Shown here in pieces: positions 45,652 to 64,000 of a DNA stretch of 64,000 bases. The stretch spans positions 930,001 through 994,000 of the forward strand of contig NZ_CP024047.1 of assembly GCF_003430825.1 (NCBI RefSeq), written 5' to 3'. Made by a program: the position numbers and the translations under genes. The notes under the pieces were generated by a model, which saw nothing but the letters and a program-made list of their open reading frames with translations, had not been told where the DNA came from and made no database searches. The DNA is from Natrarchaeobaculum sulfurireducens (lineage in GTDB: Archaea > Halobacteriota > Halobacteria > Halobacteriales > Natrialbaceae). Positions within the stretch are counted from its first letter, which is position 1; each line of letters starts with the position of its first letter.

Positions 45652-46598
45652 CCGACGGCGTCACTGTTGACGATGTCGGTGGACCGTCGACTGCTCCGAG
45701 CCGCTGGTTACCACTGTTCGACTTTCGGTATACTCGCCAGCCATTTGTCACTTCAAAGATTTATACAGAAATAGTATGTGTCAGAACGCGTATTGTTGCC
45801 GGAGAGTAATTAAACCGGTCACCTGTTGTGGGTCGAATTGACTGTGAGGTTGTCTGTGCTGTCCTTCCGGTTGCGGATTGTTCTACTGACCTCGAGTGGT
45901 CTTACGACAACTCTATCGTTTATTTACCGCATGCGTGGCCGTAATTCGTTTTGTCAATGCCGGGAATCGGTGTACATCCATCACTAACCGATTGTGTTAG
46001 TGCGGCGGCGGTCGATTCTGATCGGCCAGCTCGAAATGTAACAGAGCGTTTCTGAATGCGATTTTTACAAGATGGGGTACCGACAATTCCTGAGTGCAAT
46101 CAACGTCGGTCTCGAAACGGGGGGTGTGCCCCCATAGACGGACTTCAGGTACCGTTCGGAAGAGGTGAATACTCGAACGGCAACTGCGGCTATGGGCGAC
46201 ACAAGAGTAAACGTCGTGGTACGGTACTCGAATCCGGGAACCGTCGAAACGTGCCCTGTGAGGATTTCCCTCAGCGTTTGTACGATGGGTTGTACTGTCG
46301 GTATCGCCTCGAAGCCTACGGTGAAAGCGCGTCTTTCGTGGGAGGAATGCCATCCACTACAGCTTTCGATCTGAAGCTTTCTACTCCGCCAGTCTGTCAG
46401 CGTGTGCCCGCTCCGCTCGAAGAGGCCGAAATAGTTGCTTCATTTTGCCCGCGCTTTAAGCCCGTACTATTGTAAATCACTCGTAAATATTGGTGGTATC
46501 TTCCTCAGCGATACTGACTCTGGGTGACGTTCGTCGGCATGTGCCCGCCGTGCGAAAGAACTGTATAGGTTACTGCCCAAGTTCGTATTAGACCGATT
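45652..46598. other. 947-nt gene-poor, A+T-richer stretch
   Basis: Base use changes here: A/T-rich words such as AAAGATTTATACAG and GTTTATTTACC appear, and codon bias is lost in all frames. Two overlapping frames (46056-46475 plus, 45997-46353 minus) lack motifs and G/C in third positions. A GGGGGGTGTGCCCCC hairpin lies at 46119-46133. It may be decayed mobile DNA at the border of the sulfur region, but I recognise no transposase. Confidence 0.5.
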
Positions 46599-47693
46599 AT
46601 GGCGGCAAACCAATCCGACGACGCGCTCCAGGACCTACCGCCGAGTTCAAAGTTCATTTATAAGACTCTCGAGGACTCGGGTCCAATGACGCTGAAGGCG
46701 TTGACCGAGGAGACGTTGCTCTCGTCGCGAACGGTTCGGTACGGATTAGACCAGCTCGAGGACGCCGGATTCGTCGACTCGTCGCCGGCTCTCCACGACG
46801 GGCGACAGACGTGCTATCGACTCAGCACGTCGGAGGAGAGTACGACCGGAAGCGAATCGGCGGTCGTGTCGCCCGAGTGGGTCAAAGCGCGACTCGAGGA
46901 GTTTCAGCGTGACGATCCATCGCTTCGGCTCGTCGAAGCCGACTGTGAGTACGAGTGTGGCCACATTCCGGGAGCGGTAGCGATCGACGTCCTCTCCGAT
47001 CTCGTCGACGTCAACGGCTGCGGTATCGCTGACAAGCGCTGTTTCGAAGAGTACGTCGGCTCTCGAGGTATCACGGAGGACAGCACGGTCGTGATTTACA
47101 GCATCGACGAGAACCAGTACGCCGCGTATCTGTATTGGTTGTTCAAGTACTACCGTCATACGGACGTACGGTTACTCGATGGTGGCAAACAACGGTGGAA
47201 AGACGTCGGTGGCCTGTTGACGACCGACCGACCAGACGTTACCGAGCAGACGTACGTCGCCCACTTGCCCGACGAGCGGATTCGAGCCTACCGGAGCGAC
47301 GTCGAGTCCGCCCTCGCGAGCGAGATAACGCTCGTCGACGTTCGCTCGACAGCGGAGTATCACGGCGAGAAGACCCAGCCACCGAACAAAAGCCTCCCCG
47401 AGGCACGAACCGCTGGCCACATCCCGGGGACGATCCACATCGTCTGGTCGGACGTGATCGACGACGATGGGCGGTTCAAAGACGAACCGGAACTCGAGCG
47501 GCTGTTCACCGAACACGACGTCCGCCCGGACAGAGAAACGATCGTCTACTGCCACGTCGGCGAGCGGTCGTCGATCGTCTGGTTCGTGCTCTCGGAACTG
47601 CTCGAGTTCGACGGCGTGGCCAACTACGATGGGTCATGGATCGAGTGGGGCAATCTCATCGACGCTCCCGTCGAGAAGGCAGGGGACAGTTGA
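46599..47693 (+). CDS. Winged-helix domain fused to tandem rhodanese domains
   Basis: A 364-residue fusion. Residues about 15-75 form a winged helix (PPSSKFIYKTLEDSG, then TLLSSRTVRYGLDQLEDAGF). Residues about 88-205 form a rhodanese domain whose catalytic Cys position is Ser168 (VIYSIDENQ). Residues about 225-360 form a second rhodanese domain with an intact loop, Cys318 in YCHVGERSS. The C-terminal half looks like a thiosulfate sulfurtransferase. A protein that senses persulfide or thiosulfate sulfur and controls the SQR and related genes downstream is inferred from domain order and position. Co-opted sulfurtransferase function alone is the alternative. Confidence 0.85.
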   Translation: MAANQSDDALQDLPPSSKFIYKTLEDSGPMTLKALTEETLLSSRTVRYGLDQLEDAGFVDSSPALHDGRQTCYRLSTSEESTTGSESAVVSPEWVKARLEEFQRDDPSLRLVEADCEYECGHIPGAVAIDVLSDLVDVNGCGIADKRCFEEYVGSRGITEDSTVVIYSIDENQYAAYLYWLFKYYRHTDVRLLDGGKQRWKDVGGLLTTDRPDVTEQTYVAHLPDERIRAYRSDVESALASEITLVDVRSTAEYHGEKTQPPNKSLPEARTAGHIPGTIHIVWSDVIDDDGRFKDEPELERLFTEHDVRPDRETIVYCHVGERSSIVWFVLSELLEFDGVANYDGSWIEWGNLIDAPVEKAGDS

Positions 47694-47789: not shown

Positions 47790-47813
47790 TTGACGCAATA
47801 ATTGCATGGTCAA
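47790..47813. promoter_or_regulatory. Nested dyad upstream of sqr
   Basis: TTGAC-GCAAT-A-ATTGC-ATG-GTCAA: outer arms TTGAC/GTCAA and inner arms GCAAT/ATTGC are both perfect. It lies between the HTH-rhodanese stop and the SQR TATA box, about 50 nt upstream of the latter, a plausible activator or repressor site. Confidence 0.5.
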
Positions 47814-47863
47814 CTCACGCCGCGGCCGTCTCCGATCATAATCTCTCCTATATACAGACTTAG

Positions 47864-47888
47864 GTATAATAGGTCCTTCATTCGAAGG
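47864..47888 (+). promoter_or_regulatory. SQR core promoter and CCTTC/GAAGG dyad
   Basis: GTATAATA (47864-47871) lies about 24 nt before ATG 47892, and CCTTC-ATTC-GAAGG (47875-47888) sits between the box and the start, over the probable transcription start. Confidence 0.5.
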
Positions 47889-47891
47889 TGT

Positions 47892-49064
47892 ATGGACCAC
47901 ATTGTGGTTGTGGGTTCAGGATCCGGCGGGACGATGGCGGCGAACATTCTCCGTCGAAAACTGGACTCCAAGGCGGTCGAGGTGACCGTAATCGACAAAC
48001 GCACAGAACACTACTACCAACCGTCGTTTTATTTGATCCCGTTCGGCTATCTCGAACCGGAGCAGTCCAGACATATCGATGAGTTGCTCAAATCCGGCGT
48101 CGAGTTCGTCAACGACGCTGTGACGGAGATCGATCCCGACGAGCGAACTGTCACGCTTGCCGAGGGCGACGACCTCGAGTACGACTACCTCGTGGTCGCG
48201 ACGGGCCACCGGCTCGACCCGAGCGCGACGCCAGGCCTCGTGGAGGCCTGGCAAGAAGGCGACGACGTCTATCCGTTCTATCACTACGACGCCGCGCTCG
48301 AACTGCGTGAGGCGCTCGAGAATTTCGACGGTGGGACCTTCCTCGTCACCCAGCCAGATACGCCGATCAAGTGTCCGGGCGCGCCGCTAAAACTCACGAT
48401 GCTTGCGGAGGACTACTTCCGACGGCGAGGCATCCGCGACGATGTCGAGGTCATCATGACGCGCAACGCCGAGCACCACTTCGGCGTGCAGCCGTACCGC
48501 GACGCGCTCTATGAGATCTGGGACGATCGCGACATCGAGTTCAAATCGAACGTCTCGGTCGACCGGATCGATCCCGACGCGGGCGTCGTCCACTCTGCGG
48601 ACGGCGAGCAGATCGAATACGATCTCTACGCACCGGTGACGCCACAGTTCGGCCAGGAAGCGATCACCGACGGGTCGCCGCTGGCCGACGGCTCAGAAGA
48701 CGGCGAGTACGTCACGATCGACCAACACACCTGCCAGCACGACGAGTACGACGAAATCTTCGCGCTCGGGGACTGCGAGAACGCACCCCATTCGAAGACG
48801 GCAGCAGCCGCTCGCAAGCAGGCTCACGTCGTGGCAGACAACCTCGAGGCGCTGGTCGAGGACAAACCGCTGCGTGCGAACTACGACGGCTACGCCGCTT
48901 GCCCGCTACTGACGGAGAAAGGCAAAGCGATGATCGCCGAGTTCGACTACGAAGACTCGATCTCTGCGCCCGTCGAGAGCAAACTGAACTGGATCATGGA
49001 CGTCAACGTCCTCCCGACCGTCTACTGGGATGCCTGGATGAAAGGCTACGACCCACTTCCGTAA
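47892..49064 (+). CDS. sqr: Sulfide:quinone oxidoreductase (SQR), copy 1
   Basis: A 390-residue FAD disulfide-oxidoreductase that oxidises sulfide and passes electrons to quinone at the membrane. The dinucleotide fold is VVVGSGSGGTMAAN, the second FAD motif is EIFALGDCENAP, and the sulfide-active Cys are C161 (TPIKCPGAPLKL) and C337 (YAACPLLTEKGK). Additional C281 and C295 are present. The C-terminal half (KLNWIMDVNVLPTVYW) is the amphipathic quinone-side region. ATG 47892 is set by the promoter; the frame is open to 47802. The DUF1641 gene follows after two bases. Confidence 0.93.
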   Translation: MDHIVVVGSGSGGTMAANILRRKLDSKAVEVTVIDKRTEHYYQPSFYLIPFGYLEPEQSRHIDELLKSGVEFVNDAVTEIDPDERTVTLAEGDDLEYDYLVVATGHRLDPSATPGLVEAWQEGDDVYPFYHYDAALELREALENFDGGTFLVTQPDTPIKCPGAPLKLTMLAEDYFRRRGIRDDVEVIMTRNAEHHFGVQPYRDALYEIWDDRDIEFKSNVSVDRIDPDAGVVHSADGEQIEYDLYAPVTPQFGQEAITDGSPLADGSEDGEYVTIDQHTCQHDEYDEIFALGDCENAPHSKTAAAARKQAHVVADNLEALVEDKPLRANYDGYAACPLLTEKGKAMIAEFDYEDSISAPVESKLNWIMDVNVLPTVYWDAWMKGYDPLP

Positions 49065-49066
49065 GC

Positions 49067-49921
49067 ATGGCAGGAAACGACCAATCGATCGACGGATCCT
49101 TCGACGAAACGCCGTTCGAGCCCGCCGAGGCCGACGAACTCGCACGAGTCATCGAAAAACACGACGCAGAACTGGCGGAGTTGCTCGAGTTGCTCGTCGT
49201 CGCCCAGGAGCTCTCGGCGGACCTCGCCCCTGAGCTTCGCGAGGCCGCTGGCGACTCCCGTGAGCCGATCCGCGAGATTCGGCTCGCTCTCGAGCGCGAG
49301 GAGACGCTGGTGCTCATCCAGCGCGTCGGGGAGAACGCTGATACTCTCGTTGAACTCCTCGAGGTGCTCGAGGTAACCGACGAACTCGTGACCGACCTCG
49401 TCCCGGAGGTACAGACGATCGTTCACGAGAACCGGGAGACGCTCGCCCGACTGCGGCTCGCACTCGAGCGCGAGGAGACGCTCGTCTTGCTCGAGCGACT
49501 GGGCGAGAACGCCGATACGATGGCGGAGCTGCTCGAGTTGCTCGACGTGACTCACGAGCTTGCGTCCGATTTGGTTCCAGAGGCTGTCGAGGTGGCCCAG
49601 GAGAACCGCCAGCCGATCGCCGAACTTAGAGTGATGTTCGCCGGGCTCGCCGGTACGTACGCACAATCAGACCTCGAACCCGAGCGACTGGGACAAAACC
49701 TCGGCAACATGCTCGTCTTCGCCTGTCAGCTCGGTGATGACCAGTTCATCGATGCCATGGAATCCGGGTTCACCGCGTTTACCGATCCTGAACCCCCGAA
49801 GAAGGTCGGATTGTTGGGGATGATCGGGGCCCTTCGTGACGACGACGTTCGACAGGGCCTCGGCGTCCTGATGGAATTCCTCCGTCGGATGGGGGCCTCT
49901 CGAGCCACTGACGGTGAGTGA
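49067..49921 (+). CDS. DUF1641 protein with three helical repeats
   Basis: A 284-residue protein two bases after sqr, hence co-translated. Residues about 15-72, 73-130 and 131-188 form three repeats of 58 residues, with LALEREETLVL at 73-83 and again at 131-141, followed by LGENADT/VGENADT and EL-TDLVPE segments. The C-terminal part (190-284) is the DUF1641 region (KVGLLGMIGALRDDDVRQGL). DUF1641 proteins are commonly linked to SQR and formate dehydrogenase genes. Membrane docking or complex assembly of SQR is an inference. Confidence 0.82.
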   Translation: MAGNDQSIDGSFDETPFEPAEADELARVIEKHDAELAELLELLVVAQELSADLAPELREAAGDSREPIREIRLALEREETLVLIQRVGENADTLVELLEVLEVTDELVTDLVPEVQTIVHENRETLARLRLALEREETLVLLERLGENADTMAELLELLDVTHELASDLVPEAVEVAQENRQPIAELRVMFAGLAGTYAQSDLEPERLGQNLGNMLVFACQLGDDQFIDAMESGFTAFTDPEPPKKVGLLGMIGALRDDDVRQGLGVLMEFLRRMGASRATDGE

Positions 49922-50181: not shown

Positions 50182-50192
50182 GAAATAATTTC
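50182..50192. promoter_or_regulatory. AATAATT dyad upstream of the peroxiredoxin
   Basis: GAAAT-A-ATTTC is a perfect 5-bp dyad with a single central A, the same design as GCAAT-A-ATTGC upstream of sqr. It lies about 13 bp before the TATA-like palindrome, the position of an activator or extended BRE site. Confidence 0.45.
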
Positions 50193-50227: not shown

Positions 50228-50248
50228 CTACAGATACAATGTCTGTAG
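50228..50248 (+). promoter_or_regulatory. Inverted repeat enclosing the peroxiredoxin start codon
   Basis: CTACAGA-TACAATG-TCTGTAG: perfect 7-bp arms with the ATG at the end of the 7-nt loop. As RNA it could form a hairpin presenting or masking the start codon; as DNA it could be an operator. Confidence 0.45.
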
Positions 50249-50913
50249 ACCAACCCGCGGAAAGCGGCTTTCCGCTCATCGGGGATCAGTTCCCCGAACT
50301 CGAAGTCGAAACGACGCACGGAACGAAAGCGATCCCGGACGACTACGAGGACAGGTGGTTTGTCCTCTTCAGCCACCCCGGTGACTTTACGCCGGTCTGT
50401 ACGACCGAGTTCGTTGGCTTCGAGCAGCGCCGCGAGGCGTTCGAGGAACTGAACACTGAACTGATCGGGCTTTCGATCGACCGCGTCCACTCGCATATCA
50501 AGTGGACCGAGTGGATCGACGACGAGATTGACGAGGATATCGGCTTTCCGATCATCGCCGACGAGAGCGGTACCGTCGCCGAAAAACTCGGAATGGTCCA
50601 CCCTGGACAGGGTACGTCGACCATCCGTGCGGTCTTCATCGTCGACCCCGACGGGATCACTCGGCAGGTCCTCTACTACCCCAAAGAGATCGGCCGAAAC
50701 GTCGACGAAGTACTTCGCTCGCTCGAGGCACTGCAGATCAGTGACGACGAAGACGTCGCGCTCCCGGCAAACTGGCCGGAAAACGAGAACTTCGGCGACA
50801 AGGCACTGCTCTCGCCACCAGGGACTGTCGAGGAAGCCGAGGCCCGACTGGCCGAAGCCGACGAAGAGGGGTACGAATCGTACGACTGGTGGTTCACGCT
50901 GAAAGACCTCTAA
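50239..50913 (+). CDS. 1-Cys peroxiredoxin (Prx6-like)
   Basis: A 224-residue thiol peroxidase. The peroxidatic Cys is C54 in SHPGDFTPVCTTEFVGF and is the only Cys in the protein, so it must be reduced by an external thiol. The C-terminal domain (YYPKEIGRNVDEVLRSLEAL and onward) and length are of the Prx6/AhpC-like archaeal type. It lies between SQR and a thioredoxin-reductase-like enzyme, which could be its electron donor system. Its promoter carries a dyad, a palindromic TATA element and a start-codon hairpin. Confidence 0.92.
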   Translation: MSVDQPAESGFPLIGDQFPELEVETTHGTKAIPDDYEDRWFVLFSHPGDFTPVCTTEFVGFEQRREAFEELNTELIGLSIDRVHSHIKWTEWIDDEIDEDIGFPIIADESGTVAEKLGMVHPGQGTSTIRAVFIVDPDGITRQVLYYPKEIGRNVDEVLRSLEALQISDDEDVALPANWPENENFGDKALLSPPGTVEEAEARLAEADEEGYESYDWWFTLKDL

Positions 50914-51220: not shown

Positions 51221-51547
51221 CTAGACGGTACACTCCTCGATGAGCGTCGCGACCGTCTGTGCAGAGACGTTCGACCGACCTGTTGCGGTCATGAGCGTTG
51301 AAATCCACGCGGGCGTCAGTCCGAGTTCGGCGAGTGCGACGGCTTCGGCTGCGGCGTCCGAACAGCCTGCCTCGTAGTACAGTTCGTTGATTCGGTCGTG
51401 TCGGTGTCTAACGAGTTCGAGACCAAGATGCTCGAGCGACACGTCTTCGGCTGGCTCGAACGATTCGCTCGCGGTGTCGAGGGACGCGAGACTGTCGAGG
51501 TCGTCGAGTGAGACGACGGATTCGTCGCTATCGAAACTGTTCACCAT
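51221..51547 (-). CDS. Small acidic haloarchaeal protein
   Basis: A 108-residue protein with an Asp/Ser/Leu-rich N-terminal 40 residues (SFDSDESVVSLDDLDSL) and a helical C-terminal half (LGLELVRHRHDRINELYY, then an Ala/Glu-rich helix and LTPAWISTLMTATGRSNVS). The last part could form a small three-helix domain. A TTAAGTAAATC box lies about 27 nt upstream of ATG 51547, supporting expression. Function unknown. Confidence 0.65.
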   Translation of the reverse strand: MVNSFDSDESVVSLDDLDSLASLDTASESFEPAEDVSLEHLGLELVRHRHDRINELYYEAGCSDAAAEAVALAELGLTPAWISTLMTATGRSNVSAQTVATLIEECTV

Positions 51548-51691: not shown

Positions 51692-52768
51692 ATGTATACG
51701 GACGACGGATTCGATTACGACGTTGCGGTCGTCGGCGGCGGGCCGGCAGGACTGACGAGTGCGCTGTACGCGACTCGACTGGGGCTCGACACGCTAGTCG
51801 TCGATCGTGGCGGCGGCCGCGCCGCTATGATGCAGGAAACCCACAACGTCATCGGCATCGAAGAACACGTCTCGGGCAACGAGTTCCTTCAGACCGCCCG
51901 TGAGCAGGTACAGGGATACGGTGCCGACGTCGAACGTGGGCTCGTCGAGGACGTCACCCCGATCGACGGCCTTGACTCGAGTCCGGTCGACGGTGGCTTC
52001 CGCGTTTCGTTCAACGACGAGACGGTCGACGTTTGTCGGGTCGTCCTCGCAACGGGATTCGCTGACGAGCGCCCAGATCCACCGCTTCCACGAACTGGGC
52101 GGGGGCTGCATTATTGTTTGCACTGTGATGCGTTCATGTTCGTCGACGAACCCGTCTACGTGATGGGAACGACCGATGCGGCCGCCTACGTTGCGATGAT
52201 CATGCTGAACTACACCGACGACGTCGATGTGCTCACCCGTGGTGACGCACCCGAGTGGAGCGAGGAGACGGCGACGATGCTCGAGGCCCACCCTGTCGAC
52301 GTCGTCACCGAGGAGATCACAGGCATGACCAAACGCGGCGATGGATGGCTCGAGTCCTTCGAGTTCGAAGACGGGACGACGCGGCAGTACACCGGCGGGT
52401 TCCCGATGTACGGGTCGAACTACCACGACGACCTCGTCGAGTCACTCGGCCTCGAGCGAACCGACGATGGTACCGTCGCCGTCGACGACCACGGACGGAC
52501 GTCGGTCGACGGCGTCTACGCCGTTGGCGACCTCACACCCGGACACAATCAGGTCCCAATCGCGATGGGCGAGGGTGCCAACGCGGGTATCGCGGTTCAC
52601 AAAGACCTGCGTGCGTTCCCGCGCTCGCTCGAAGCGATCGAAGAATACGGAGCCGTCTCGGACGCCGACGTTCCAGCGGTCTCCGCGGGCCTGAAAGCGA
52701 CAGCGGTCGACCACGATGGACATGCCGGCTATCCCGACGAGCAGTCCGAAACTGTCGCCGACGACTGA
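51692..52768 (+). CDS. Thioredoxin-reductase-like FAD/NAD(P) oxidoreductase
   Basis: A 358-residue flavoprotein. VAVVGGGPAGLTSALYATRL near residue 12 binds FAD, the redox pair is C142/C145 in HYCLHCDAF, and GVYAVGDLTPGHNQVPIAMG is the C-terminal FAD signature. NAD(P) binding by the middle domain (VYVMGTTDAAAYVA) departs from the usual GxGxxA, so its electron donor is uncertain. It could reduce a thioredoxin-like partner for the peroxiredoxin, or persulfides. A GCTTTTGCC box lies about 28 nt upstream. Confidence 0.87.
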   Translation: MYTDDGFDYDVAVVGGGPAGLTSALYATRLGLDTLVVDRGGGRAAMMQETHNVIGIEEHVSGNEFLQTAREQVQGYGADVERGLVEDVTPIDGLDSSPVDGGFRVSFNDETVDVCRVVLATGFADERPDPPLPRTGRGLHYCLHCDAFMFVDEPVYVMGTTDAAAYVAMIMLNYTDDVDVLTRGDAPEWSEETATMLEAHPVDVVTEEITGMTKRGDGWLESFEFEDGTTRQYTGGFPMYGSNYHDDLVESLGLERTDDGTVAVDDHGRTSVDGVYAVGDLTPGHNQVPIAMGEGANAGIAVHKDLRAFPRSLEAIEEYGAVSDADVPAVSAGLKATAVDHDGHAGYPDEQSETVADD

Positions 52769-52920: not shown

Positions 52921-54096
52921 ATGGTAGAAGCCATTTCGGCAGCAGACTTACGAGACCGGATCGAAGCCGATGCGTTCGACGTGCTCTTCGACACGCGAGC
53001 GCCCGAGGATTTCGAAGAGTGGCACATTGCCGAGGCCGAGAACGTCCAGTACTCGGGCTCAGACGACGAACTCGTCGGCGAGTTCGACCCCGAGGCCTAC
53101 GACCCCGAAGCCGCGGTCATCATCACGTGTGCAACCGGCAACTCGGCCGGTGCGTTCGCCGAGTACCTCACCGAGGTCGAAGGCTTCGAAGACGTCGCCT
53201 ACGTTGACGGTGGAATGGAAGATTGGAGTCTGGTCTACGACGTCGTTCCGATCGCGACCGAACGCGACGAACTCGAGATCCTCCAGCTCCAGCGCCGTGC
53301 GAAGGGGTGTCTCGGCTATCTCGTCGGCTCGAAGCGTACCGGTAAAGCCGCACTCATCGACGTCACGCGTGCGACCGGTGCCTTCGAGTCCGCTGCAGCC
53401 GACCGTGGCTACGAGATTGCCCGCGTCTTCGATACACACATTCACGCGGACCACATCTCTGCGGGCCGCATGCTCGCCGACAAGTACGACACCCCCTACC
53501 ACCTCGGCGAACCCGCTACCACGCGGGATCCGCAGTTCGAATTCGACGGCCTCGAGCCAAACGAAGCAGTGCTTGTTGGCGACATCGCCATCAAGGCAGT
53601 TCATACGCCGGGTCACACCACGGGTATGACCTCCTACCTCGTCGAAGATGAGGCACTGGTGACCGGCGATACGCTGTTCGTCGAGTCGATCGGCCGCACC
53701 GAGCTCCAGTTCGCTGGCGAGGATGCGAAAGCCGGTGCTCGAGTCCAGTACGAGACGCTCCACCACAAGATCGGGACCTTGCCGGACCACGTCAAGATCC
53801 TCCCTGGACACTTCTCGCTGACCAACTGCGGTGAGTACATCGACGTCCAGCCCGGCGCACCGATGTTCTCGACCGTCGGCGAGATCTGGGCGAAAAACGA
53901 GATCATCCAGCTCGAAGAAGACGAGTTCGTCGAGCACATGTTCGACAACCTGCCATCGAAGCCGCCGAACTACGAGAAGGTTATCGAGACGAACCTCGGC
54001 GTCTACGAGCCAGCGGGCGAAGACGAGCGTAACGAACTCGAGCTTGGCCCCAACCGCTGTGCAGCCACCGAAGATAGCGCCGTCGCGGACGACTGA
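52921..54096 (+). CDS. Rhodanese-persulfide dioxygenase fusion
   Basis: A 391-residue protein. Residues 5-108 form a rhodanese domain with catalytic Cys70 (IITCATGNSAGA). Residues about 120-355 form a metallo-beta-lactamase-fold domain with H173, H175, D177 and H178 (THIHADHIS), H228/H232 (HTPGHTTG), D250 (VTGDTLF) and H297 (LPGHFS), as in ETHE1-type persulfide dioxygenases. It would oxidise glutathione- or other low-molecular-weight persulfide to sulfite while the rhodanese moves sulfur to thiosulfate. Rhodanese at the N-terminus is the reverse of many known fusions. It is the first gene of an operon ending with the antiporter. Confidence 0.9.
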   Translation: MVEAISAADLRDRIEADAFDVLFDTRAPEDFEEWHIAEAENVQYSGSDDELVGEFDPEAYDPEAAVIITCATGNSAGAFAEYLTEVEGFEDVAYVDGGMEDWSLVYDVVPIATERDELEILQLQRRAKGCLGYLVGSKRTGKAALIDVTRATGAFESAAADRGYEIARVFDTHIHADHISAGRMLADKYDTPYHLGEPATTRDPQFEFDGLEPNEAVLVGDIAIKAVHTPGHTTGMTSYLVEDEALVTGDTLFVESIGRTELQFAGEDAKAGARVQYETLHHKIGTLPDHVKILPGHFSLTNCGEYIDVQPGAPMFSTVGEIWAKNEIIQLEEDEFVEHMFDNLPSKPPNYEKVIETNLGVYEPAGEDERNELELGPNRCAATEDSAVADD

Positions 54097-54268: not shown

Positions 54269-55294
54269 ATGGAACTCGTTGGGCTCAGCCTGCCACTGCT
54301 GGCGTTGTTCGTGGGCTTCGGCTTTATGGTCGGCGTGTTGTTCGGCTTTTTCGGGATGGGCGGGTCGTTCCTGATCACGCCTACCCTGTTGATCCTCGAT
54401 TATCCCGCGTCAGTCGCGATCGGCTGCGGGCTCGCGTTTTATTTCGGCACGTCGGTTATCGCCGTGATGAAACACTACGACGTCGGGCAAGTCGACTACA
54501 AACTCGGCGCGGTGTTGTTCGTCGTGCTCTCGATCGGTATCGAACTCGGGAGCCGCCTCGTCTTCGCTCTCGAGGCGCTAGGGATCGCCAACCTCGTCAC
54601 CGGGATCGCATACGTGCTCCTGTTGGCGGGGATTGGTGCGCTCTTCTTGCGCCGGGCGTACAATCTCGACGAGGACGATGAGGACGACGATGGCGTCGAC
54701 GATGAGGAGATACCGGCGGTCGGCCAGAGGATTCAGTCGTACACCATTCCTCCGATGATCTCGCTGACGTCCGGCGGCCGGGCGTCGCTGTGGACGATTT
54801 CGGGTGCCGGCGGGGGCGTCGGCCTCGTCTCCGGACTCATCGGCGTTGGCGGCGGCTTCATGCGGATGCCCGCGATCTACTACCTGATCGGGACGCCGCT
54901 GACTGCCGCCGTCGGGACGAGCCTGTTCGCCGGGCTGTTCTCCGGCGCGTTCGGCACGTTCACCTACGGGGCGTCGGGCAGCGTCGACCTCGCGGTCGTC
55001 GGAACGCTGCTCGTCGGCAGCGCGATGGGTGCACGGATCGGCTCGGCGGCGACAACGATCGTCGAAGAAGACGACGTCATCATCTACTTCGGCATCATGA
55101 TGGTGCTGGCCAGCGCCGGCATCGCGTTGAGCGAACTCGCAAACTGGCTGGGAACGGACGCACTCGACGTGCTAAGCGTGGTCTTGCTCGTCGGTTCGTC
55201 GTTCTTCGTCGGGCTGATGATCCTCTATCAGGCCGCTCAGAACGTCGAAATGGACGGATCGCACACGAAAGCGACTCCCGACGGAGGTGACTGA
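54269..55294 (+). CDS. TauE/SafE sulfite exporter-family protein
   Basis: A 341-residue membrane protein with about nine hydrophobic segments. The two-fold family repeat is seen in FGFFGMGGSFLITPTLLIL and GLIGVGGGFMRMPAIYYLIG, each with the glycine-rich turn. A cytoplasmic acidic loop (NLDEDDEDDDGVDDEE) separates the halves. The family exports sulfite or other sulfur-containing organic anions. The position after the persulfide dioxygenase, with a GGGTGA ribosome site, supports export of the sulfite produced. Confidence 0.88.
   Translation: MELVGLSLPLLALFVGFGFMVGVLFGFFGMGGSFLITPTLLILDYPASVAIGCGLAFYFGTSVIAVMKHYDVGQVDYKLGAVLFVVLSIGIELGSRLVFALEALGIANLVTGIAYVLLLAGIGALFLRRAYNLDEDDEDDDGVDDEEIPAVGQRIQSYTIPPMISLTSGGRASLWTISGAGGGVGLVSGLIGVGGGFMRMPAIYYLIGTPLTAAVGTSLFAGLFSGAFGTFTYGASGSVDLAVVGTLLVGSAMGARIGSAATTIVEEDDVIIYFGIMMVLASAGIALSELANWLGTDALDVLSVVLLVGSSFFVGLMILYQAAQNVEMDGSHTKATPDGGD
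55283..55290 (+). promoter_or_regulatory. Strong Shine-Dalgarno sequence before a mini-ORF
   Basis: GGAGGTGA is a full 8-nt match to the haloarchaeal 16S 3' end, unusual in a genome of mostly leaderless genes. It precedes the ATG at 55294 and is close to the end of tauE. Confidence 0.55.
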
Positions 55295-61044: not shown

Positions 61045-62223
61045 ATGTCTGCAACACCGCACGTCGTAGTGCTCGGTGGCGGCGCAGGTGGGTTGATGAC
61101 GGCCAACCGGCTCTCCCGGAAACTCGACCACGTCGACGTCACCGTCGTCGACCGAAGCGAGTACCACTACTACCAGCCGTCGTACTACCTCATCCCGTTC
61201 GGGTACAAAGAGCCTGACCAGCAGCGCCGGCCGATCAGGGACCTCCTCCGCGAGGAGATCACGTTCCGCCAGGCGACCGTCGAGGGCGTCGACCCGGACG
61301 ACCGAATCGTTCAGACCGACGACGGCGACGTCGCCTACGACTATCTCGTCGTCGCGCTCGGGAACGCACTTCGTGACGACGCCGTCGACGGCCTGGTCGA
61401 CGCCTGGGAGGGGACCGACTCGGTTTTCCCGTTCTACCACTACGAGGCCGCCCTCGAGTTGGGTGAGGCGCTCGAGGAGTTCGACGGCGGCCGGTTCGTC
61501 GTCTCGGTGCCGGAGACACCGATCAAATGCGGCGGCGCGCCGCTGAAGCTGACGATGCTCGCCGAGGACTACTTCCGGCGACAGGGGATGCGCGACGAGG
61601 TCGACCTCGTCATGACCAAACCGATCGAGGTTCCGTTCGGCACGACACCCCAGAAGGCGCCGTACAACGAGAAGATCGAGGAGATCTGGGCGGACCGTGA
61701 CATCGAATTCGTCCCCGAGTTCACCGTCGCCGAGGTCGACGGCGAGGCGAAGGAGATCCACTCGACGGATGGCCGAACGGTCGAGTACGATATGTACGCA
61801 CCCGTGACGCCACAGTACGGCCGCGAGGCACTGACCGAGCGCTCGCCGCTGACCGGCGATGGCGAGTACGTCACCATCGACGAGGAGACCCTCCAGCACG
61901 ACGCATACGACGAGGTGTTCGCCCTCGGCGACTGTAGCAACCTCCCGACCTCGCGGACGGCGTCTGCGGCCCGCAAACAGACGCACACACTGGTCGACAA
62001 TCTCGCCGCGTTGATCGAGGAGCGCTCGTTCACCGCCTCCTACGACGGCTACACTGCCTGCCCGCTGCTGACCGAGAAGGGGAAGGCGATGATCGCCGAG
62101 TTCGACTACGAGAAACCGATCTCGGCGCCGATCAACAGCAAGATGAACTGGATCATGGACGTCAACGTTATTCCGTCGATGTACTGGAGCACCTGGATGC
62201 GCGGCTACGATCCGGTACCGTGA
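61045..62223 (+). CDS. sqr: Sulfide:quinone oxidoreductase (SQR), copy 2
   Basis: A 392-residue FAD oxidoreductase highly similar to the copy at 47892 across the whole length, including HYYQPSYYLIPFGY and MNWIMDVNVIPSMYW. The sulfide-active Cys are C162 (TPIKCGGAPLKL) and the Cys in YTACPLLTEKGK. The third Cys found at residue 281 of copy 1 is absent (ETLQHD instead of HTCQHD). It lacks an adjacent DUF1641 gene. The close tie to a cysteine-rich HTH regulator and cydA suggests a separate role in sulfide-linked respiration. Confidence 0.92.
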   Translation: MSATPHVVVLGGGAGGLMTANRLSRKLDHVDVTVVDRSEYHYYQPSYYLIPFGYKEPDQQRRPIRDLLREEITFRQATVEGVDPDDRIVQTDDGDVAYDYLVVALGNALRDDAVDGLVDAWEGTDSVFPFYHYEAALELGEALEEFDGGRFVVSVPETPIKCGGAPLKLTMLAEDYFRRQGMRDEVDLVMTKPIEVPFGTTPQKAPYNEKIEEIWADRDIEFVPEFTVAEVDGEAKEIHSTDGRTVEYDMYAPVTPQYGREALTERSPLTGDGEYVTIDEETLQHDAYDEVFALGDCSNLPTSRTASAARKQTHTLVDNLAALIEERSFTASYDGYTACPLLTEKGKAMIAEFDYEKPISAPINSKMNWIMDVNVIPSMYWSTWMRGYDPVP

Positions 62224-62523
62224 GCATCGTCGAGGCGAGCCTCGTCACGACCGAGTGATTGAGGTACGATACGAACCGGAAGGCTCGAGCGTCCGCCCTA
62301 GCCTCGAGAGGATGCATCACGGATGGTCGTCGCAATATTTTCCGCAGTGATCGACGAGTCCGTCGTTCCCCGCCAAAACCACGTCGTTCGACTCCTTTAG
62401 GCGAATCCGGCCCCTCCTTCCGGACGGGATGGCAGCCACCGTACCGTTCGCGACCCAGTCGGGGAATCGCTACAGCCACACGGTCGAACTGCCGACGACG
62501 TCTCGGGGGGCGCAATCGGGCCT
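62224..62523. other. 300-nt gap, nothing recognised
   Basis: A frame crossing this gap (62259 on) overlaps the regulator gene and is Arg/Pro-rich shadow sequence. There is an ACTCCTTTAGGCG element near 62390, but it is too far from the regulator start to be its simple TATA box. Confidence 0.5.
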
Positions 62524-63285
62524 ATGACCCACCAGCGTCGCCTTCGCGAGGTCACGTTCACCCTGGCGTACGAGCGTGGCGTCGATCCGGTCGCGGACGT
62601 CCTCCACGAACATCCGACGCTCCAGGCCTCGAAGATTTCCGTCACGCTCGGGCCGATGTCGGCCGTCCAGCTCGTTCGGCTCACTGGCCCACCAGAAGCC
62701 GCCGATCGGCTCCAGACAGTCCTCGAGGACCGCGAGTTCCGTCCGCGACCGATCGGCATCGAACCCTGTCGAGCCACGAACACGGTGTACCCGCTCGAGT
62801 GTACGCCGCGGCGACGGCTGTGTTGCGTGTACGTCGACGAACTCGACGACTGTCCATCGATCGACTCGGCGATTGCGGCTGCGTCGGGGACGGGGACGAT
62901 CTGTGAGTGTAACGCCCATGCGGGGCGCGAACAGTGGCGCGTACTGTTGCGATCCGACGAGTGCGTCGGCGATCTGTTCGACCTCGTCGAGGAAACCTGC
63001 ACTGCGGGCATCGACGTCGAACTGGGCCACATCGGCGAGGCGACGACGTGGCACGGCGACGACTTCGTCGGCTCGGATCTGACTGGGACACAGCAACAGG
63101 CGATCGCCGAAGCGGCCGCAAGGGGGTACTACGAACGCCCCCGGGAGGTCACGATCGGCGAACTCGCAGCCGAACTCGACGTACCGGAGTCGACGCTTTC
63201 TTACCGGCTCCGCATGGCCGAATCGCAACTCGTCAAACGCTACCTCGAGCGACACGCCGAACTCGAGGACGCACCCCTCGCCTGA
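62524..63285 (+). CDS. Cysteine-rich HTH_10 (bacterio-opsin-activator-like) regulator
   Basis: A 253-residue transcription regulator. The C-terminal HTH_10 domain is at about residues 190-245 (ARGYYERPREVTIGELAAEL, then DVPESTLSYRLRMAESQLVK), typical of Bat/DmsR-type haloarchaeal activators. The N-terminal half has nine Cys (82, 93, 100, 101, 110, 127, 129, 147, 159), including paired CC and CEC, which is exceptional for a haloarchaeal protein of this size. Metal or thiol/sulfide sensing is inferred. The flanking genes are SQR2 and cydA, and it may activate one or both. Confidence 0.85.
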   Translation: MTHQRRLREVTFTLAYERGVDPVADVLHEHPTLQASKISVTLGPMSAVQLVRLTGPPEAADRLQTVLEDREFRPRPIGIEPCRATNTVYPLECTPRRRLCCVYVDELDDCPSIDSAIAAASGTGTICECNAHAGREQWRVLLRSDECVGDLFDLVEETCTAGIDVELGHIGEATTWHGDDFVGSDLTGTQQQAIAEAAARGYYERPREVTIGELAAELDVPESTLSYRLRMAESQLVKRYLERHAELEDAPLA

Positions 63286-63360
63286 GCGGCCGACCCCGAA
63301 CCCGGACGATTCTTCCAGCAGAATAAATTGGCCGTTCGTCCACTACACTCTGGTTTATCA

Positions 63361-63424
63361 ATCGAACTGTATCGCTAAAAGGCGATAAAGGCTCTGGTTC
63401 GATGGTAAAAACTTGGCTATAGCC
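63361..63424. promoter_or_regulatory. Nested inverted repeats and palindrome upstream of cydA
   Basis: ATCGAAC (63361-63367) and GTTCGAT (63397-63403) enclose TATCGC (63370-63375) and GCGATA (63382-63387). GGCTATAGCC, a perfect 10-bp palindrome, follows at 63415-63424. All lie 55-120 nt upstream of the cydA ATG and are probably operator sites. Confidence 0.5.
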
Positions 63425-63432
63425 GAACATGA

Positions 63433-63473
63433 GTTTACCCATCGGTCGTCCCTAACTGTGACTCACTGGTGAG
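63433..63473 (+). promoter_or_regulatory. cydA promoter element and ribosome binding site
   Basis: TTTACC (63433-63438) would start transcripts near 63462, and GGTGAG (63468-63473) is a ribosome site 6 nt before ATG 63480. This supports 63480 over the ATG at 63498. An 8-codon frame (63429-63455) overlaps the box and is probably fortuitous. Confidence 0.45.
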
Positions 63474-63479
63474 CACGAT

Positions 63480-64000
63480 ATGTACGCAAGCCGACTGATG
63501 ACCGACCCAACACTCACGACGGCACTGTTCGAAGTCGGGCCGTGGCTGTCGTTTCTCTCGCCGGAGCTGGCGAGCCGAGCCCAGTTCGGCTGGGCGATCA
63601 CGATTCACATCGTGTTCGCGGCCCTCTCCGTCGGACTCGCACCGTTTCTCGTCTACTTCACCGTCCAGGAGGTTCGGACGGAAAAGGAACGATACGCCCG
63701 ACTCAGAAAGTTCTGGACCAAACTGTTCGCGATCGGGTTCGTCATGGGAACCGTCACCGGCATCCCGATGGGCTTTATGTTCGGGACGAACTTCGCGGCC
63801 TTTTCGGAAACCGCCGGCGAACTGATCGGGGGGCCGCTCTCGTTCGAGGCGAAGATGGCGTTCATGCTCGAGGCCGTCTTCCTCGGCGTGTTACTGTTCG
63901 GTCGTGAGCGGGTGTCCGAGTGGTTCTACGCGCTCTCGTCGGTGATGGTCGCGCTGGGCGCGTGGCTTTCTGCGTTCTGGATCCTCGTCGTCAACTCCTG
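63480..64000 (+). CDS. cydA: Cytochrome bd-type ubiquinol oxidase subunit I (N-terminal part)
   Basis: About 173 residues are visible before the window ends. After MYASRLMTDPT come SRAQFGWAITIHIVFAALSV (with the His expected to ligate heme), TGIPMGFMFGTNFAAFSE and AKMAFMLEAVFLGVLLFGRE, the strongly conserved CydA stretches. The enzyme reduces oxygen with quinol electrons, and bd oxidases are generally resistant to sulfide, which fits SQR nearby. The remaining residues and the cydB gene should lie to the right. Confidence 0.9.
   Translation, partial: MYASRLMTDPTLTTALFEVGPWLSFLSPELASRAQFGWAITIHIVFAALSVGLAPFLVYFTVQEVRTEKERYARLRKFWTKLFAIGFVMGTVTGIPMGFMFGTNFAAFSETAGELIGGPLSFEAKMAFMLEAVFLGVLLFGRERVSEWFYALSSVMVALGAWLSAFWILVVNS

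Follow-up and report, generated by a model that had tools for sequence, protein, structure and literature searches.

SurR of the Thermococcales is an archaeal sulfur-responsive winged-helix regulator with a CxxC sensor, a different regulon and no rhodanese domain, and was missing from the sulfur regulators listed in the sequence-only reading of the locus described here. Bacterial ArsR-rhodanese fusions such as Rv0324 join an ArsR HTH to a single rhodanese domain, and may be a precedent for the protein of interest, a winged helix fused to a tandem thiosulfate sulfurtransferase (TST) and hereafter called HTH-TST. In trigger enzymes such as BirA and PutA, a DNA-binding domain is carried on an enzyme that doubles as the sensor, although the enzymes and signals involved are unrelated to HTH-TST.

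Among the regulators already known to sense sulfur (CstR, SqrR, BigR and FisR; PMC9774590), SqrR and BigR (ArsR family) and CstR (CsoR family) control sulfide-oxidation genes through cysteine sulfur chemistry, as is proposed here for HTH-TST, but employ thiol pairs in small, rhodanese-free regulator folds. FisR is a sulfane-sulfur-responsive activator (PMC9774590), again as proposed for HTH-TST, yet belongs to the Fis family, uses cysteine cross-links and likewise lacks a rhodanese. The haloarchaeal OxsR is a thiol-based single winged helix (PMC9426492) and in this respect similar to what is proposed for HTH-TST, but differs in its Cys24 disulfide, its CG-rich site and the absence of an enzyme domain. 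The tandem TSTs of Thermus (1uar) and Mycobacterium (CysA2, CysA3, SseA) share with HTH-TST an inactive N-domain and an active C-domain Cys, to which HTH-TST adds an N-terminal winged helix whilst the Arg after the Cys is gone. Within the open-access literature searched, which is only part of the whole, we found neither a complete TST acting as the sensor part of a regulator nor a matching description of HTH-rhodanese regulators.

A winged helix fused to a complete tandem TST

Analysis of a 64,000-nucleotide stretch of Natrarchaeobaculum sulfurireducens DNA (the window) identified the fusion as a real, conserved ORF of 364 aa, with the following features.

46599..47693 (+): HTH-TST fusion gene; Pfam MarR and two Rhodanese matches, 19 homologues aligned, model pLDDT 85
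46641..46823 (+): winged helix, residues 15-75; Pfam, AlphaFold2 model and Foldseek
46812..46814 (+): Cys72 codon, in wing strand 71-75; alignment of fused and stand-alone proteins
47100..47102 (+): Ser168 codon, inactive first rhodanese loop; alignment, Gly in unfused TSTs
47550..47567 (+): active loop C318-H-V-G-E-R; Cys kept, Arg next to Cys gone in all readable fused proteins

The order of an HTH followed by two rhodanese domains, as read earlier from the sequence, was borne out by Pfam, which returned a MarR match at residues 23-70 (PF01047, 25.7 bits against a cut-off of 24.6) and two Rhodanese stretches (E 1.1e-25), and by an AlphaFold2 model of the full protein (pLDDT 85, pTM 0.80). 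The protein comprises the winged helix (residues 15-75), a disordered linker near residues 78-85 and a complete tandem TST (residues 88-361). The earlier reading had staked its claim on the N-terminal 80 residues folding as an HTH, and such a fold is indeed predicted: the model displays helices at 15-27, 32-39 and 43-55 and wing strands at 59-63 and 71-75, and the isolated HTH (pLDDT 85) gave Foldseek matches to MarR regulators, some of them solved bound to DNA. In Pfam, the ArsR-type HTH_5 fell below cut-off and no CsoR match was returned. A single N-terminal helix (residues 3-11) is present in the model and the TST follows the HTH, compared with the dimerization helices that flank the HTH on both sides in MarR.

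The solved structures nearest to the TST part were the Thermus and mycobacterial TSTs; structure alignments covering residues 88-361 gave 39-42 % identity. HTH-TST displays the tandem TST trait of two rhodanese domains of which the second alone carries the Cys, and the live second rhodanese claimed previously was confirmed in that Cys318 is present in YCHVGERSS. Ser168 was also found in the first rhodanese as claimed, but the 'dead' domain is not a special feature, as tandem TSTs generally have an inactive N-terminal domain (PMC10135228) and the HTH-less relatives carry Gly at this position; Ser168 was rejected as a substitute for a lost catalytic Cys on the same grounds.

Two residues distinguished the fusions from their relatives. 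Fusions retain the Cys and most of GERS but do not fit the CRxGERS loop pattern of the nearest TSTs: the residue next to the catalytic Cys was His, Asn or Gly (C[HNG]xG) in 36/36 readable fusions and Arg in 0/36, whilst Arg occupied it in all 95 of the 95 readable unfused TSTs (84 CRIG, 10 CRVG, 1 CRIA). Two seemingly unfused exceptions (L186 and L081) proved to be cut fusion genes. No role for this Arg in these TSTs was found in the papers examined; its loss may change the donor preference of the TST. The HTH domain of the fusions has only one conserved Cys, Cys72, compared with the two sensor Cys of SqrR/BigR. Cys72 was present in 35/37 fusions, as opposed to 0/34 stand-alone HTH relatives with that position aligned, and was missing from L194, which lies away from SQR, and L085, which lies beside an SQR. 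Leu24 was found in 37/37 fusions; the thiol switch of OxsR, Cys24 in its N-terminal helix, may correspond to a different position. As the fused proteins form one clade, these residue changes and the gene co-occurrence described below may reflect few independent events.

Distribution and origin of the fusion

The approximately 37 full-length fused homologues constitute one clade that is so far known in Halobacteria only. In a tree of TST parts the fusions fell on one side of a branch (SH-aLRT 97), the simplest reading of which is a single origin, within the limits set by a quick tree method and by the long branches of L085 and L194. Full-length fusions were carried by 17/194 Halobacteria genomes, some with two copies, and the fusion was present in 25/125 genomes of the window's family, one of these a partial copy. 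At a strict cut-off (E 1e-70), a 295-genome sample of the phylum contained full-length fusions in Halobacteria only. A scan of genome contigs returned Natrinema hispanicum as the sole full-length case among the matches listed, and carries little weight regarding distribution. The source of the HTH is a haloarchaeal family marked by the motif LPPSAKLV, stand-alone members of which were present in every genome examined (3-5 per genome). Records from Natronosalvus, Natronorubrum and a Salarchaeum plasmid label the fusion in NCBI only as 'rhodanese-like domain-containing protein'.

Some copies were atypical. One fusion copy (L041, 303-1367; G021:C25) has in-frame stops and is a probable pseudogene, and the same genome (G021) keeps another copy, L049. 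Second copies with no SQR nearby were found at L039 (9362-10453) and L205 (10774-11853); that of L039 adjoins a CPA antiporter gene, has lost Cys72 and may have another role. The cluster is plasmid-borne in Natronorubrum bangense (L248), Salarchaeum sp. JOR-1 (L249) and Natronosalvus amylolyticus (L032), a location that may explain its patchy spread.

The fusion is associated with sulfide-oxidation genes

The genes downstream of the fusion in the window are as follows.

47892..49064 (+): SQR/FCSD-like flavoprotein, predicted target; Pfam Pyr_redox_2 and FCSD_central, NCBIfam type III SQR model below cut-off
48953..49921 (+): DUF1641 protein after SQR; Pfam and homologues, true start probably near the SQR stop
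50239..50913 (+): peroxiredoxin (Prx), predicted target; NCBIfam NF009668 above cut-off
51692..52768 (+): TrxR-like flavoprotein; Pfam, no upstream dyad
52921..54096 (+): rhodanese-MBL (Rhd-MBL) protein, probable persulfide dioxygenase; Pfam and homologue loci, divergent from HTH-TST in group B
54269..55294 (+): TauE/SafE sulfite exporter family

The proposed placement of the fusion gene in a sulfide-oxidation locus held across the collection, since nearly every fusion adjoins an SQR-like flavoprotein, a DUF1641 protein, a peroxiredoxin and a rhodanese-MBL protein. Group B fusions are oriented divergently from the rhodanese-MBL gene and in most cases lie upstream of SQR. Within the window, the rhodanese domain precedes the MBL domain in the 52921-54096 product, and a small ORF on the minus strand (51221-51547) lies between Prx and TrxR; the majority of group A loci contain this ORF, in one orientation or the other, and it has only a weak HTH_31 match.

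Co-occurrence of the fusion with the neighbouring SQR type was almost complete. Among the 194 Halobacteria, this SQR was present in 17/17 fusion genomes and the fusion in 17/19 SQR genomes (Fisher 1.6e-22, a test that ignores shared ancestry), whilst in the family sample of 125 the SQR was found in 25/25 fusion genomes and the fusion in 25/26 SQR genomes. The SQR genomes lacking the fusion (G171, G013 and G439) have an SQR that is less closely related (about 55-57 %). In G010, the SQR and the fusion share a plasmid, at a separation of ~100 kb.

A conserved dyad precedes the predicted target genes

Inspection of relatives' promoters revealed a recurrent, AT-rich, 11 bp palindrome, GMAATAWTTKC. 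Its positions in the window are given below, together with that of a TATA-like box.

46428..46438 (+): dyad GAAATAGTTGC, 1 mismatch; starts 171 bp upstream of the HTH-TST start
47795..47805 (+): dyad GCAATAATTGC; starts 97 bp upstream of the SQR start codon
47835..47845 (+): position of the second dyad, 57 bp upstream of the SQR start; poor match here, better in relatives
47859..47865 (+): TATA-like box, ~33 bp before SQR
50182..50192 (+): dyad GAAATAATTTC; starts 57 bp upstream of the peroxiredoxin start

The two sites previously put forward for binding (47790-47813 and 50182-50192) thus contain exact dyad matches that are position-conserved in related promoters. In 33/34 SQR promoters from genomes with the fusion, the best match lay 95-100 bp ahead of the start codon; the matches of L040, L044 and L217 were weak (9/11 positions) and the SQR promoter of L049 had none. 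Using a symmetric matrix derived from the SQR sites, the second-best dyad was found 39-42 bp downstream of the first in 29/34 SQR promoters. As the TATA-like box, TTYAGRT or TTAGGT was present at -34 to -32 in 24/34. Weak dyad-like sites near -17 were also evident in some SQR promoters. Immediately ahead of the TATA-like box, some SQR promoters additionally carry an inverted repeat, in the form CCTA-N10-TAGG in the window (region 47845-47865) and CTACCT-N8-AGGTAG in group B.

Applied to other promoters, the SQR-derived matrix gave counts that, like every dyad count here, are inflated by kinship among the sequences: 25/27 for Prx, at the same -98 and -57 places (2.5 in shuffled sequence), 30/38 for HTH-TST (3.3 in shuffled sequence) and 19/35 for Rhd-MBL (3.8 in shuffled sequence), the last two being non-independent because the intergenic DNA is common to both genes in group B. 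It was in promoters of SQR and HTH-TST that the motif was first spotted, and the cleanest independent test is therefore that provided by Prx. The same matrix found the dyad in 0/59 promoters of control genes (DUF1641, TrxR, TauE, CPA and APC), and none was present in the 2 SQR genes without a fusion that were checked, a small control. A consensus search returned no strong dyad in group C fusion promoters. The flanking DNA has diverged whilst the dyad sites are unchanged.

The window's own genome contains eight exact dyad sites, three of them inside the 16 kb sulfur region. Reading the ORFs around the five sites outside this region revealed no evident sulfur genes, and the genome-wide list was dropped as a regulon. 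The 61045-63998 part of the window holds another SQR-like gene, which shares 62 % identity with the first. Downstream of it come an exact dyad (GCAATATTTTC, at 62332), an HVO_2928/HTH_10 regulator gene and a cytochrome bd gene; the second SQR of G064 is likewise followed by the same dyad. The Salarchaeum cluster (L249, 8138-10544) is again linked to cytochrome bd, with the peroxiredoxin gene followed by cydA and cydB.

Proposed mechanism and alternative explanations

The interpretation we favour, with moderate confidence, is that HTH-TST is a one-component transcriptional regulator of sulfide oxidation that binds the dyads, activates transcription and uses its TST persulfide as the sensor. The MarR-like winged helix would bind GMAATAWTTKC before SQR, the peroxiredoxin gene and the fusion gene itself, with Rhd-MBL as a further target in certain lineages. 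At SQR and Prx, the paired dyads (~98 and 57 bp before the start) are separated by about four turns of the helix and both precede the TATA-like box; they could hold two dimers on one DNA face. Cys318 of the TST part would accept sulfur from a sulfane-sulfur donor to form a persulfide, which we infer to be the signal to HTH-TST and which would alter DNA binding, possibly via the fusion-specific wing Cys72. A more tentative extension, which we regard as doubtful, is a self-writing sensor in which Cys318 passes donor sulfur to Cys72 in its own or its partner's wing, such that the enzyme reaction would directly set transcription.

HTH-TST probably acts as an activator, given that dyads upstream of a TATA-like box occupy the activator placement in archaea: sites upstream of BRE/TATA go with activation for TrmB-family regulators (PMC4158304), and OxsR activates from such sites (PMC9426492). 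The same strong, position-fixed placement argues against a repressor released by reactive sulfur in the manner of SqrR, BigR and CstR, a reading with some appeal in that several known bacterial sulfane-sulfur sensors repress (PMC9774590) and that some SQR promoters hold the weak matches near -17, but one that we consider somewhat unlikely. A bifunctional trigger enzyme, in which a working pathway sulfurtransferase also binds DNA and substrate occupancy sets transcription, would explain the intact TST fold, the retention of Cys318 with most of the GERS loop and the place of the gene in a sulfide pathway, to which a TST would be of use. The Arg that follows the Cys in all readable unfused TSTs and in no readable fusion speaks against it, as does the unfused TST present in the same genome, and we judge this explanation unlikely.

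The dyads could instead belong to another regulator, for example a stand-alone LPPSAK-type HTH, with the fusion an enzyme bearing an idle HTH. Each genome examined offers several such relatives, yet these occur everywhere whereas this SQR and the dyads follow the fusion, and the HTH has been kept in fusions down to 42 % identity, making this account improbable. An ordinary TST whose N-terminal extension arose by chance or was misread would suit an annotation that reads rhodanese-like only, but is very hard to reconcile with an HTH in 37 full-length homologues of one clade and with confident models; a chance HTH was rejected on this conservation and the structure models.

Implications

If HTH-TST is the activating regulator favoured here, a transcription factor would have adopted a catalytic persulfide site as its sensor, an arrangement unlike the bare thiol pairs of CstR, SqrR and BigR. 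The question is directly testable via two residues (Cys318 and Cys72) and one 11-bp site. Haloarchaeal sulfide oxidation would thereby gain a regulator, a DNA site and a small, testable regulon.
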